Program-made: the position numbers and the translations under genes
Notes under the pieces: generated by a model
Database searches by the model: none
The model's input: the letters and a program-made list of their open reading frames with translations, nothing else
What the model was told of the DNA's origin: nothing
Assembly (NCBI GenBank): GCA_016218705.1
Contig: JACRDC010000048.1
Coordinates: 1 to 39,553, forward strand
From: Desulfarculus sp.
GTDB taxonomy: Bacteria > Desulfobacterota > Desulfarculia > Desulfarculales > Desulfarculaceae
Direction of reading: 5' to 3'
Length of the DNA: 39,553 nucleotides
Part shown: piece by piece, positions 4,172 through 39,356 of the stretch
Layout: every line of letters begins with the position of its first letter
How positions within the stretch are numbered: position 1 is the first letter of the stretch

Positions 4172-4212
4172 GCAGGGTTTAACGTCGGATGCAATGTTTG
4201 GACTTTTGCAAG

Positions 4213-4246
4213 ACGGGCGGGGTTTATCCCCGCCCGTTTTTTTTTT
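4213..4246 (+). terminator. Strong intrinsic terminator after the DUF342 gene
   Basis: A perfect 10-bp stem acgggcgggg/ccccgcccgt (4213-4222, 4228-4237) with a 5-nt loop, followed by a run of ten T (4237-4246). The stem shares its sequence with the dispersed repeat family seen at 5914, 11002, 28459 and 35713, so a repeat copy may have been adopted as a terminator. Confidence 0.85.
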
Positions 4247-4260
4247 GGGGGGGCTTGAGC

Positions 4261-4446
4261 GTTCAACAAGGTCAGTACGGAAGCCGACCAGGCCCGTCAG
4301 GGGAGAACGCCACCCGACCCGCATGGGGAGTCGCGGCACTCGACCCCCGCCCCTTGTATGTTCGACAAGGCCAGTACGGGAGCCGACCAGGCCCGCCAAA
4401 GGAGAGCGCCGCCCGACCCGCATTGGGAGTCGAGGCACTCGACCCC
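4261..4446. repeat. 99-bp tandem direct repeat, two diverged copies
   Basis: Copy 1 begins at 4261 and copy 2 at 4360, a period of 99 bp. Both contain, in order, gttc(a/g)acaagg, cagtacgg, agccgaccaggcccg, acccgacccgcat or cccgacccgcatt, and gcactcgacccc. They differ by scattered substitutions. The unit lies between the FapA terminator and the convergent gene ending at 4506 and has no convincing coding capacity. A more diverged relative may lie at 12828-12890. Nothing else is seen in the 4247-4505 gap. Confidence 0.8.
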
Positions 4447-5879: not shown

Positions 5880-5913
5880 CGGCGAGGCAAGCCTTGTGGT
5901 TTTTTTAAACGAA

Positions 5914-6002
5914 GGCGGGCGGGGATAAACCACGCCCCTACATCGAGAAAAGGCAATTACCACGTTGCCTTCATGTAGGGGCGGGGGTTATTCCCGCCCG
6001 CG
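5914..6002. repeat. Inverted pair of REP-like palindromes (REPIN-like)
   Basis: The left unit at 5914-5943 reads ggcgggcggggataaacc... ending ctacat. The right unit at 5973-6002 is its inverted copy (atgtaggggcggg...). Between them is an extra hairpin, aaggcaa/ttgcctt (5950-5971). The whole block can fold into one long structure. The same two-unit layout recurs at 11002-11087. It lies between the convergent genes ending at 5879 and 6042 and may also stop transcription. Confidence 0.8.
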
Positions 6003-11001: not shown

Positions 11002-11087
11002 ACGGGCGGGGAAAAACCCGCCCCTACACCAATAAAAGACTATGAGATCGAGATATTAATGTAGGGGCGGGGTTTATCCCCGCCCGT
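11002..11087. repeat. Inverted pair of REP-like palindromes (REPIN-like)
   Basis: The left unit at 11002-11028 is acgggcggggaaaaacccg... ending ctaca. The right unit at 11059-11087 is atgtaggggcggggtttatc... ending cccgt. The ctacat ends face inwards, as at 5914-6002. A short hairpin tgcccc/ggggca follows at 11104-11120, just before the stop of the minus-strand gene at 11126. The block fills most of the gap between the convergent genes. Confidence 0.8.
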
Positions 11088-20284: not shown

Positions 20285-20313
20285 ATAATAACACAGCGAA
20301 CCGCCCGTACCAA
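20285..20313 (-). promoter_or_regulatory. Candidate promoter of the heparinase-like/DsrE-like operon
   Basis: On the minus strand TTGGTA (20313-20308, 4/6), a 17-nt spacer and TATTAT (20290-20285, 5/6). Transcription would start at about 20278, almost on ATG 20276, so the mRNA may be nearly leaderless. The -35 box overlaps the edge of a dispersed palindrome. Confidence 0.4.
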
Positions 20314-20348
20314 TTTGCGATCAAACTACTCGCTTGAGCGCAAAGCGG
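20308..20348. repeat. Palindrome, copy A of a dispersed hairpin family
   Basis: The stem tttgcg-a-tcaa / ttga-g-cgcaaa (20314-20344) has an 8-9 nt loop. The flanks read accaatttgcg on the left. The same design, with ccaa(tt/aa)tgcg arms and inner tcaa/ttga steps, recurs at 37308-37348 and 39286-39324. It sits between the divergent heparinase-like and ppx-like genes. Confidence 0.6.
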
Positions 20349-20401
20349 AGGACATTAGCCTACTTGCGTATAGCACAGCCACCCGGCGGCGGGCTTGGCC
20401 C

Positions 20402-28437: not shown

Positions 28438-28458
28438 GCGGCGGCTAGCGCACAAAAG

Positions 28459-28481
28459 CGGGCGGGGATAAACCCCGCCCG
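28459..28481. terminator. Hairpin of the dispersed repeat family, likely bidirectional terminator
   Basis: A perfect 9-bp stem cgggcgggg/ccccgcccg with loop ataaa, between the convergent lipoprotein and rmlA genes. It is a single unit of the repeat family seen at 5914, 11002 and 35713 but lacks the ctacat tail. There is no T run. Confidence 0.6.
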
Positions 28482-35629: not shown

Positions 35630-35712
35630 TTTTTTATCTCCTTGGATTTGAGGTCCCCGGTTGCCTTGCACCGGGAACACCTTTAATCGGGAGGCGACGA
35701 TCCCTGGTTTTC

Positions 35713-35787
35713 ATGTAGGGGCGGAGGTTACCCCCGCCCATCTTTTTAGTGCTAGCCCCGCGGGCGGGGATAACCCCGCCCCTACAT
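35713..35787. repeat. Inverted REP-like pair, opposite arrangement
   Basis: Left unit 35713-35740 is atgtaggggcggaggttacc... and right unit 35761-35787 is cgggcggggataacc... ending ctacat. Here the ctacat tails face outwards, the reverse of the pairs at 5914 and 11002. The pair lies upstream of the enoyl-CoA hydratase start at 35629. The rest of the gap to 35928 contains the hairpins listed next. Confidence 0.8.
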
Positions 35788-35928: not shown

Positions 35929-37110
35929 CTACCTCTCCACGATCAGGGCCGCGCCCTGGCCGCCGCCGATGCACAGGGTGGCCAGGCCCAGGCCGGCGCC
36001 CCGCTTCTGCATCTCGAACAAGAGCGTCACCAGGATGCGCGCGCCGCTGGCGCCGATGGGGTGCCCCAGGGCGATGGCCCCGCCGTTGACGTTGACGATC
36101 TCGCGCTTGAAATTAAGCTGGCGGATGACCGCCTCGGCCTGGGCCGCGAAGGCCTCGTTGGCCTCGATGAGGTCGAAGTCGGCCGGGGTGCAGCCGCACT
36201 TGGCCATGGCCGCCTTGGTGGCGGCCACCGGGCCGATGCCCATGTAGGCCGGGTCCACGCCGCCCCAGCCATAGGCCTTGATCTTGGCCAGCACCGGCAG
36301 ACCCATGGCCTTGGCCGTTTCGGCGGTGGTGACCACCAGGGCCGCGGCGCCGTCGTTGATGCCGCTGGCGTTGCCGGCCGTGACCGTGCCACCCTTCTTG
36401 AAGGCCGGGGCCACCTTGGCTAAAGACTCCGGCGTGGCGCCGAAGCGGGGGTGCTCGTCGGTGTCGCAGACCTTGGGGTCGCCCTTCTTCTGGGGCACCA
36501 GCACGGGCACGATCTCGTCCTTGAAGCGGCCAGAGGTCACGGCCTTCTCGGCGTTCAACTGGCTGGCCAGCGCCAGGGCGTCCTGGTCGGCGCGGGTGAT
36601 ACCGTACTTCTCGGCCACGTTCTCGGCGGTGATGCCCATGTGGTAGCCGTTGAAGATGTCGGTGAGCCCGTCGAAGACCATGGTGTCCACCATCTTGGTG
36701 TCGCCCATGCGGGCGCCCCAGCGGGCGCTTTTAAGCACGTAGGGGGCCTGGCTCATGTTCTCGGTGCCGCCGGCCACCACGATCTTGCAATCGCCGCACA
36801 TCACGGCCTGGGCGGCCAGCATGACGCTTTTGAGCCCCGAGGCGCAGACCTTGTTGATGGTGAAGGCGCCCGCCTCCACGGGGATGCCCGCGCCCAGCTC
36901 CACCTGACGGGCCACGTTCTGGCCCAGGCCGGCGTTCAGGACGTTGCCGTAGATCAGCTCGTCCACCTGGCCGGGCTCCACCTGGGCCCTTTTCAGGGCC
37001 TCCTTCACCGACGTCACGCCCAAGGTCACGGCCGGGACGTCGCTGTACATGCCGCCGAACCGTCCCACCGCCGTGCGGGCGGCGCCCACGATCACCACTT
37101 CCTTCAACAT
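35929..37110 (-). CDS. Thiolase (acetyl-CoA acetyltransferase) 1
   Basis: A 393-residue thiolase: cleaves 3-ketoacyl-CoA with CoA, or runs the Claisen condensation of two acetyl-CoA. Acylated Cys89 (INKVCASG), His350 ([11 protein letters not shown]) and proton-donor Cys380 (LCIGGGQG) are all present. Other family marks are [11 protein letters not shown] and [18 protein letters not shown] 37110 was chosen because GGAG lies 6 nt upstream; an in-frame ATG at 37122 has no Shine-Dalgarno. It follows thiolase 2, with the five-hairpin array between the genes. Confidence 0.93.
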
Positions 37111-37199
37111 GTCGTTCTCCATATATTGAGGTTCTTGCGAAGAGGATGCCTTCCCAGGGGTAAGGCTCCCTCGCTCGCCCAGGGCAAGCTACTTCCTCT

Positions 37200-37348
37200 G
37201 GCGGTCAAAGCCGTCCTGGCTTTGACCGCCTATCAGCCGGGCAAAAGCGCGGTTTTGCCCGGCCTCCCGGGCGCTTTCGCGCCCGGCGGGCCATCCATGG
37301 CCCGCTCGCCAAAATGCGCTCAAGCTCAATGCTTGACCGCATTTTGGC
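37200..37348. repeat. Array of five consecutive strong hairpins between two thiolase genes
   Basis: In order: ggcggtcaaagcc/ggctttgaccgcc (13 bp, 37200-37230); ccgggcaaaa/ttttgcccgg (10 bp, 37237-37262); ccgggcgc/gcgcccgg (8 bp, 37267-37286); gcgggcca/tggcccgc (8 bp, 37286-37305); gccaaaatgcg...cgcattttggc (37308-37348: 11 bp, one mismatch, then 6 bp). The last ends 1 nt before the thiolase 2 stop. Two weaker hairpins may precede (37148-37166 and 37173-37189). Almost all of the ~150 bp is base-paired. The final unit belongs to the palindrome family at 20308 and 39286. Confidence 0.85.
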
Positions 37349-37349
37349 A

Positions 37350-38531
37350 TTACATGTTCTCCAGGATCAGGGACACCGCCTCGCCGCCGCCCAGGCACAG
37401 GCTGGCCATGCCCAGGGCCGCGCCCCTATCCTTCAGGGCGTGGATCAGGGTGGTGAGCACCCGCGCGCCGGAGCCGCCGATGGGGTGGCCGATGGACAAG
37501 GCCCCGCCAAGGACGTTGACCTTGGCCGGGTCCAGGTCCAGGGTGCGCTGCACCGCCACCGAGGAGGCGGCAAAGGCCTCGTTGACCTCCATCAGGTCAA
37601 TGTCGCGGGGCTTCAATCCCTGCTTGGCGCAGACCTTGGGGATGGAGTTGATGGGCGCCACCAGGACGTACTTGGGGTCAATGCCCGCCGCGCCCTGGGC
37701 GCCGATCTTGACCAGGGGCTTGAGGCCCATGGCGCGGGCCTTGTCGGCGCTCATCACCACCACCGCCGCCGCGCCGTCGTTGAGGCTACTGGCGTTGCCC
37801 GCCGTAACCGTGCCGCCTTCTTTCTTGAACACCGGACGCAGCCGGGCAAGCACCTCGGCCGAGGTGGCGCGGATGCCCTCGTCCTGGGTCACCAGCTTGG
37901 GCTCGCCCTTCTTCTGGGGCACCGGGACGGGCACGATCTGGGCGGTGAAGCGCCCCTCCTCCTGGGCCTTGAGCGCCTTGCCGTAGGATTCCAGGGCGAA
38001 TTGGTCCTGGTCGGCGCGGGTGACGCCGTATTTTTCGGCGCAGAGTTCGGCGCTCATGCCCATGTGAAAATCGTTGAGGTGGTCCCACAGGCCGTCGTGG
38101 ATCATGGAGTCCACGGCCTTGCCGTCGCCCATGCGGTAGCCGCCGCGCTGCTTGAGCAGCAGGTAGGGCGCGTTGGTCATGGACTCCATGCCGCCGGCCA
38201 CCACCACCTGGGCGTCGCCGGTGGCCACGGCCTGGGCGGCCAGCATCACGGCCTTGAGGCCGGAGCCGCAGACCTTGTTGACCGTGATGCAGCCCACGTC
38301 TTGGGGTAGCCCCGCGCGCAGCGAAACCTGGCGGGCCGGGTTCTGGCCCAGGCCGGCGGGCAGCACGTTGCCCATGATAAGCTCGTCCACGTCCTCTTTG
38401 GCCAGCCCCGCCCGGGCGATGGCCTCGTTGACGGCCACCACGCCCAACTCCAGGGCGCTCAGGGAGGCGAAGGCCCCCTGGAAGGCCGCCACCGGGGTGC
38501 GGCAGGCGCTGACGATGACAACTTCCTTCAT
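37350..38531 (-). CDS. Thiolase (acetyl-CoA acetyltransferase) 2
   Basis: A 393-residue thiolase, the same length as thiolase 1 but clearly diverged. Catalytic residues: Cys88 (VNKVCGSG), His349 (LSIGHPIGGSG), Cys379 (LCLGGGEA). It also has NEAFAASSVAVQRTLDL and GNASSLNDGAAAVVV. Paired thiolases in a cluster may serve different chain lengths or directions. ATG 38531 has AAGGAG about 8 nt upstream; a GTG at 38540 is too close to that site. The gene lies 56 nt after the WYL-type regulator. Confidence 0.93.
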   Translation of the reverse strand: MKEVVIVSACRTPVAAFQGAFASLSALELGVVAVNEAIARAGLAKEDVDELIMGNVLPAGLGQNPARQVSLRAGLPQDVGCITVNKVCGSGLKAVMLAAQAVATGDAQVVVAGGMESMTNAPYLLLKQRGGYRMGDGKAVDSMIHDGLWDHLNDFHMGMSAELCAEKYGVTRADQDQFALESYGKALKAQEEGRFTAQIVPVPVPQKKGEPKLVTQDEGIRATSAEVLARLRPVFKKEGGTVTAGNASSLNDGAAAVVVMSADKARAMGLKPLVKIGAQGAAGIDPKYVLVAPINSIPKVCAKQGLKPRDIDLMEVNEAFAASSVAVQRTLDLDPAKVNVLGGALSIGHPIGGSGARVLTTLIHALKDRGAALGMASLCLGGGEAVSLILENM

Positions 38532-38587
38532 GTTATGCACTCCTTGCGGGGATGGGGCCGCTGTCCAAAGCCATTGCCACCCAGGCC

Positions 38588-39250: not shown

Positions 39251-39285
39251 GGCCACTCCCACCATGGGTGAAACCGGCCCTCCTA

Positions 39286-39356
39286 CCAATTTGCGCTCAG
39301 GCGATCGGTTTGATCGCAAATTGGCAAGCGGACCTTGGATGGCTTTGCGGGCCATC
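39286..39356. repeat. Palindrome, copy C of the dispersed hairpin family, with flanking hairpin
   Basis: Stem ccaatttgcg/cgcaaattgg (10 bp perfect, 39286-39295 and 39315-39324) with an inner tca/tga step and a cgatcg in the loop. It continues with caagcggaccttggatggc and a gatggc/gccatc hairpin (39338-39356). On the opposite strand, the array at 37286-37348 has the same order: hairpin, gagcgggccatggatggcc. So part of the array is homologous to this locus. Confidence 0.65.

Follow-up and report, generated by a model that had tools for sequence, protein, structure and literature searches.

The five hairpins that lie between two thiolase genes of Desulfarculus sp. are very probably a worn copy of a transposable element, MITE-like and non-autonomous, about 160 bp in length. 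The element consists of a four-hairpin core and a terminal palindrome, is present in more than 100 copies, and has terminal inverted repeats and a 3-bp TNA target duplication. We class it among the MITE-like non-autonomous mobile elements because of these terminal repeats, the TNA duplications, the copy number, and an orthologous site that is empty in one relative and filled in another. The array was found in a stretch of 39,553 nucleotides (positions 1 to 39,553 of contig JACRDC010000048.1, assembly GCA_016218705.1), called the window throughout.

The hairpin array in the window

A preliminary description of the window had placed five adjacent stems at 37200–37348, between two co-directional thiolase genes. 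Reading of positions 36900–37600 and folding of 37140–37350 bore out the stems (Table 1), and both thiolase genes were confirmed, on the minus strand (35929–37122 and 37350–38540). Compared with shuffled sequence, as the description had proposed, the region was far more stable on both strands: it folded at −131.4 kcal/mol (plus) and −139.4 kcal/mol (minus), against means of −85.0 and −89.8 for 200 dinucleotide shuffles (z = −10.2 and −10.5; 0/200 shuffles equally good). The stems differ in sequence, as had been stated, but are partly related: the apical motif CC[A/G]TCCATGG is common to stems 1 and 4, and the terminal repeat of the element is found in stem 1 as well as in stem 5.

Table 1. Features of the element family in the window (stems H1 to H5 from the fold)
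Feature	Position	Strand	Description
Left terminal repeat	37187-37199	+	presumed position, from intact copies; unrecognisable in the window copy
H1	37200-37230	+	13 bp stem, arms GGCGGTCAAAGCC/GGCTTTGACCGCC
H2	37236-37263	+	11 bp stem, arms GCCGGGCAAAA/TTTTGCCCGGC, 6-nt loop
H3	37268-37285	+	7 bp stem, CGGGCGC/GCGCCCG
H4	37286-37305	+	8 bp stem, arms GCGGGCCA/TGGCCCGC, loop TCCA
H5 stem	37308-37348		11+6 bp with one mismatch between
H5 and right terminal repeat	37308-37349	-	minus strand TGCCAAAATGCGGTCAAG, diverged TACCAAnnTGCRATCAAA
TAA	37350-37352	-	upstream thiolase stop codon and right-end TNA target triplet
Solo terminal palindrome	20308-20350	+	decayed, same element family, TACCAATTTGCGATCAAAC...
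Solo terminal palindrome	39284-39326	+	followed by decayed core-like sequence, TACCAATTTGCGCTCAGG...TTTGATCGCAAATTGGCA

Read on the minus strand, the window copy starts with TGCCAAAATGCGG straight after the TAA stop of the upstream thiolase gene. It is worn at its other end, where the left terminal repeat has been lost and the matching TNA triplet has decayed; H1 of other copies runs on into this repeat (TACCAATATGC). Its H2 stem has 11 bp, against 12 bp in other copies. Because the left repeat and left triplet are gone, we infer the transposition of this particular copy from its siblings and from the empty site described below.

The window also holds repeats of other kinds. Palindromes of a second family (GTAGGGGCGGGGTTTATCCCCGCCCG), which begin with GTAG as REP sequences do, occur at 4208–4245, 5912–6000, 11008–11086, 28454–28481 and 35710–35753. 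At 4254–4446 a 94-nt unit with GAGTCGAGGCACTCGACCCC at its end occurs twice in tandem, the two copies being 86% alike, and a piece similar to this unit stands at the start of contig C101.

The element and its insertion sites in the genome

The genome that contains the window is in 126 contigs (4.2 Mb), and copy counts in it are lower bounds, as many contigs end inside copies. A DNA search gave at least 40 scored full or long matches with further candidates, and at least 82 in another listing. Pattern searches placed H2 at at least 104 exact or near-exact sites and H3–H4 at at least 55, while the terminal palindrome H5 gave at least about 190 strand-matches. The preliminary description had left it open whether the stems were five repeat families or one composite unit. 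They form one unit with a fixed order: at least 132 copies or pieces were read and classified, and the core was joined to H5 at 78 of the 132 places, while at 26 more the core either lacked H5 or was truncated where the contig ended. The rest comprised 16 places with H5 and part of the core, 10 solo H5 palindromes and 2 other fragments. Five separate repeat families were dropped as a reading, since the same fixed order was seen across copies.

An intact copy begins with a TNA triplet and TACCAATATGCAATCAAAGCC-ATCC-ATGGCTTTGATTGC, which is H1 with the left terminal repeat. H2, H3 and H4 follow, then H5 (TACCAAGTTGCGATCAAAC-TATTC-GTTTGATCGCAACTTGGTA), whose right arm is the right terminal repeat, and finally the identical TNA. 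The terminal inverted repeats (TACCAAnnTGCRATCAAA, 18 bp) are present at both ends of sibling copies; the window copy keeps only the right one. The modal length of 54 full-length copies was 159 bp, rising to about 200 bp with an extra hairpin, and the same TNA stood on both sides in 50 of the 54, compared with about 28% expected from triplet frequencies. The element is short (159 bp), without coding capacity and dispersed in many copies.

The extra (sixth) hairpin, CCGGGGTCCCCAA...TTGGGGTGG, lay in the H4 loop in 58 copies and in the H2 loop in 6. Nesting of elements had been suggested for the array itself; it holds for these other copies and not for the window copy. Nested hairpins of this kind (CCGGGGTCCCC..GGGGTGG) were found within hairpin loops in 64 copies, including those at L153, L154 and L158.

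Relatives differ at the orthologous thiolase gap. In Desulfarculus sp. NC_groundwater_1546 (L210) the element is absent and the gap reads ATGTAA-CGAGCTTGCCC, while WY2.bin153 (L211) has a diverged copy at the orthologous place, with an H5 that is very different in sequence and still a near-palindrome. Within the window's own genome, 69 copies had predicted genes on both sides (by our own simple codon-usage predictor). None of the 69 lay inside a predicted gene, and 60 adjoined the 3' end of at least one; relative to the element the contexts were 25 convergent, 35 tandem and 9 divergent. In 17 of the 54 full copies the target triplet served as stop codon to an upstream open frame of 80 or more codons, against a stop-codon share of 13% among all TNA triplets in the same sequence blocks, a rough control that includes TNA inside genes.

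A cut-and-paste transposase supplied in trans would recognise the ends of the element and insert it at TNA triplets, in many cases a gene's stop codon (TAA or TGA), and the duplicated stop codon would keep the target gene intact. The ends, the duplications and the empty site speak for this account. The hairpins would persist partly by re-copying of one arm from the other through intrastrand template switching, and partly because the structure may be useful to the element. For the host, the copies would be at most putative 3'-end or intergenic hairpins.

IS5-type insertion sequences make a 3-bp TNA target duplication. The element resembles them in this respect; unlike them, it sits in a genome that gave no match in profile searches with PF01609 (DDE_Tnp_1) and PF13586 (DDE_Tnp_1_2), and assignment to this type is a lead only. 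At PF13586 loci of relatives no terminal-repeat match adjoined the gene, apart from an element copy close by in L371. When terminal repeats standing alone and directed towards a transposase were searched for, only pieces of the element and one chance match came up. One copy of the window's genome (L064, contig C15) is adjoined by an open frame starting MGRRARGREVLERAKKALTTARTVSELR, which may belong to an insertion sequence.

A four-hairpin core common to the order, borne by different ends

The stems recur in relatives as well as elsewhere in the same genome. A covariance model of H1–H4, built from 28 copies of the window's genus, found 109 matches in one genome of that genus (G002) and one each in two incomplete ones (G004 and G005). 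It also matched in six further genera of the Desulfarculales: 23 times in G007, which we take to be the Desulfarculus baarsii genome, 25 in G006, 15 in G010, 7 in G020, 6 in G011 and 5 in G009. G020 belongs to another family of the order. The model had no match in the genomes sampled from a further genus of the family (g4) and from other orders. The G010 matches were considered as an unrelated tandem repeat, and this was ruled out: they are tandem copies of the core, as at L296, with a 119-bp period, and L351.

The ends that carry the core are of at least three kinds. The 3-bp TNA duplication is the type of the window's own genus. In G007 the ends are GAGnnnGCTGCACGG, and 19 of 22 copies have a 5-bp duplication; a pattern search of this genome for such ends gave element-sized pairs and solo palindromes, with no pair at insertion-sequence distance among the places listed. 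The 5-bp type is found in the window's own genome too (C1:11260, flanked by TATTC/TATTC), where it adjoins a copy of the TACCAA type. In G006, 6 of 11 copies lie between direct repeats of 17–36 bp, each a complete, locus-specific intrinsic-terminator hairpin, and these repeats aligned with scores of 24–63, compared with a maximum of 21 for mismatched pairs. The terminator-length duplications, at L293, L301, L308, L345, L347 and L349, are different at each locus. Judged by eye, ends similar to CAGGnTGTTGAAAAAG occur in G009 and G020, a few copies having apparent 3-bp duplications. The copy at L358 (G002:C58) may be a hybrid: its left end is of the TACCAA type and its right end resembles the 5-bp (GGCCTC) type.

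These data show that the four-hairpin core is common to the order and is borne by different ends with different target duplications. A broader reading, which we put forward tentatively and hold to be rather unlikely, is that the core is an exchangeable passenger or structural engine as old as the order, carried by unrelated transposon ends (3-bp TNA, 5-bp, and 17–36-bp terminator duplications), whose insertion regularly spares the host by duplicating the stop codon or terminator that it hits. The terminator-duplicating form may then use an unrecognised integration mechanism.

Covariation, rival explanations and known repeats

When 30 copies drawn from all these genera were aligned, 96.6% of cells paired and 33 of 40 pairs were changed on both sides, figures that are favoured by the fitting of the alignment to the structure. 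Cells changed on both sides numbered 267, compared with 70 in shuffles and 30–55 with slid partners, and covariation of pairs was also seen inside the genus. Single copies across the genera folded with z of −7.8 to −12.6, and the fifth, terminal stem closes the copies of G006, G007, G009, G011 and G020. The apices are the constant part, with CC[A/G]TCCATGG in H4 and often in H1, and GGCAAAA(N6)TTTTGCC in H2. Such order-wide conservation goes deeper than MITEs usually show, which allows for a functional role of the structure.

Could the array be a conserved structured RNA or regulatory element (a terminator, an mRNA 3'-end stabiliser or a processing site) kept for the host, with transposition only a secondary means of spread? 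The order-wide covariation argues for this, as do the preference for gene 3' ends, with convergent gaps outnumbering divergent ones, and the survival of the core while its ends are exchanged. We nevertheless consider it unlikely. Close relatives differ in the positions of their copies and in their number (1 to 109), and one orthologous site is empty. No Rfam family reached its gathering cut-off over the array, the only Rfam family found in the window being tRNA, and at a relaxed threshold the best matches to eight element loci were at chance level, far below cut-off.

Covariation, moreover, can also be yielded by template switching, and intrastrand switching has been reported to create and maintain hairpins (PMC8794818). 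Marks expected of this process are present here: loops are inverted in H1 of one copy (ATGGAT), in H5 of two (GAATA) and in H4 of L051, and the right arm of H1 has been rewritten to match the left arm, that is, the left terminal repeat, at C27:21986 and C36:26568. These marks offer a mutational route to covariation, and covariation by itself is therefore no proof of RNA function.

A REP or BIME array moved as single-stranded hairpins by a RAYT (IS200/IS605-type) transposase is highly improbable; the preliminary description had listed nested REP-like elements as one of several possibilities. The element does share with REP, BIME and REPIN sequences the form of high-copy extragenic palindromes (PMC3733652, PMC3116915), and GTAG-tagged hairpins of the other family lie in the same window. 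However, no GTAG or CGTC tag was present at the palindrome end in the copies read, which end in TACCAA/TTGGTA or decayed forms, and the terminal inverted repeats and target duplications of the element are clear, features that transposition as single strands does not produce. No RAYT gene was found beside copies: the Y1 (PF01797) search of the window's genome gave only two fragments, of 111 and 99 bp, with an element copy beside neither, and G007, with its 23 copies, gave no Y1 match. A chance assembly of five independent hairpins, or an extended thiolase-gene terminator, would fit an array directly after a stop codon between co-directional genes. Both are refuted by the recurrence of these stems, in one fixed order, at scores of loci and also in other genera, which leaves them a negligible probability.

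The MITE-like element remains the preferred reading. Bacterial MITEs such as Correia/NEMIS, ERIC, RUP, YPAL and Nezha are non-coding, about 100–200 bp long and present in tens to hundreds of copies, and the element resembles them in its terminal inverted repeats, target duplications, strong stem-loops and intergenic position (PMC2229807, PMC3733652). It departs from them in its four internal hairpins, arranged in a fixed order and covarying throughout the Desulfarculales, in having no fewer than three kinds of end and target duplication round one core, in being G+C-rich, and in that no partner insertion sequence was found. In the Bacillus cereus group the bcr1-type repeats, associated with a TTTAT motif and numbering up to 130 integral copies in a genome, are likewise interspersed repeats with mobile features (PMC6542083), but their sequences, host group and target motif are different. 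The CIR repeats found in Caulobacter and Brucella are intergenic and only partly MITE-like, with a multi-arm secondary structure that is conserved phylogenetically (PMC2229807); they have two arms and a GANTC loop, whereas the element has five stems, terminal repeats and target duplications.

A literature search, limited in subscription journals, found no report of this repeat family, and it is apparently a so far undescribed structured mobile repeat family spanning an order of sulfate reducers. RNA genes are called on covariation as strong as this, but here it is accompanied by the marks of template switching, and the family thereby offers a natural test of whether covariation signals function or mere copying from arm to arm. 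The exchange of ends round one core, together with duplications that preserve stop codons or terminators, is relevant to how small elements can spread while costing the host little.
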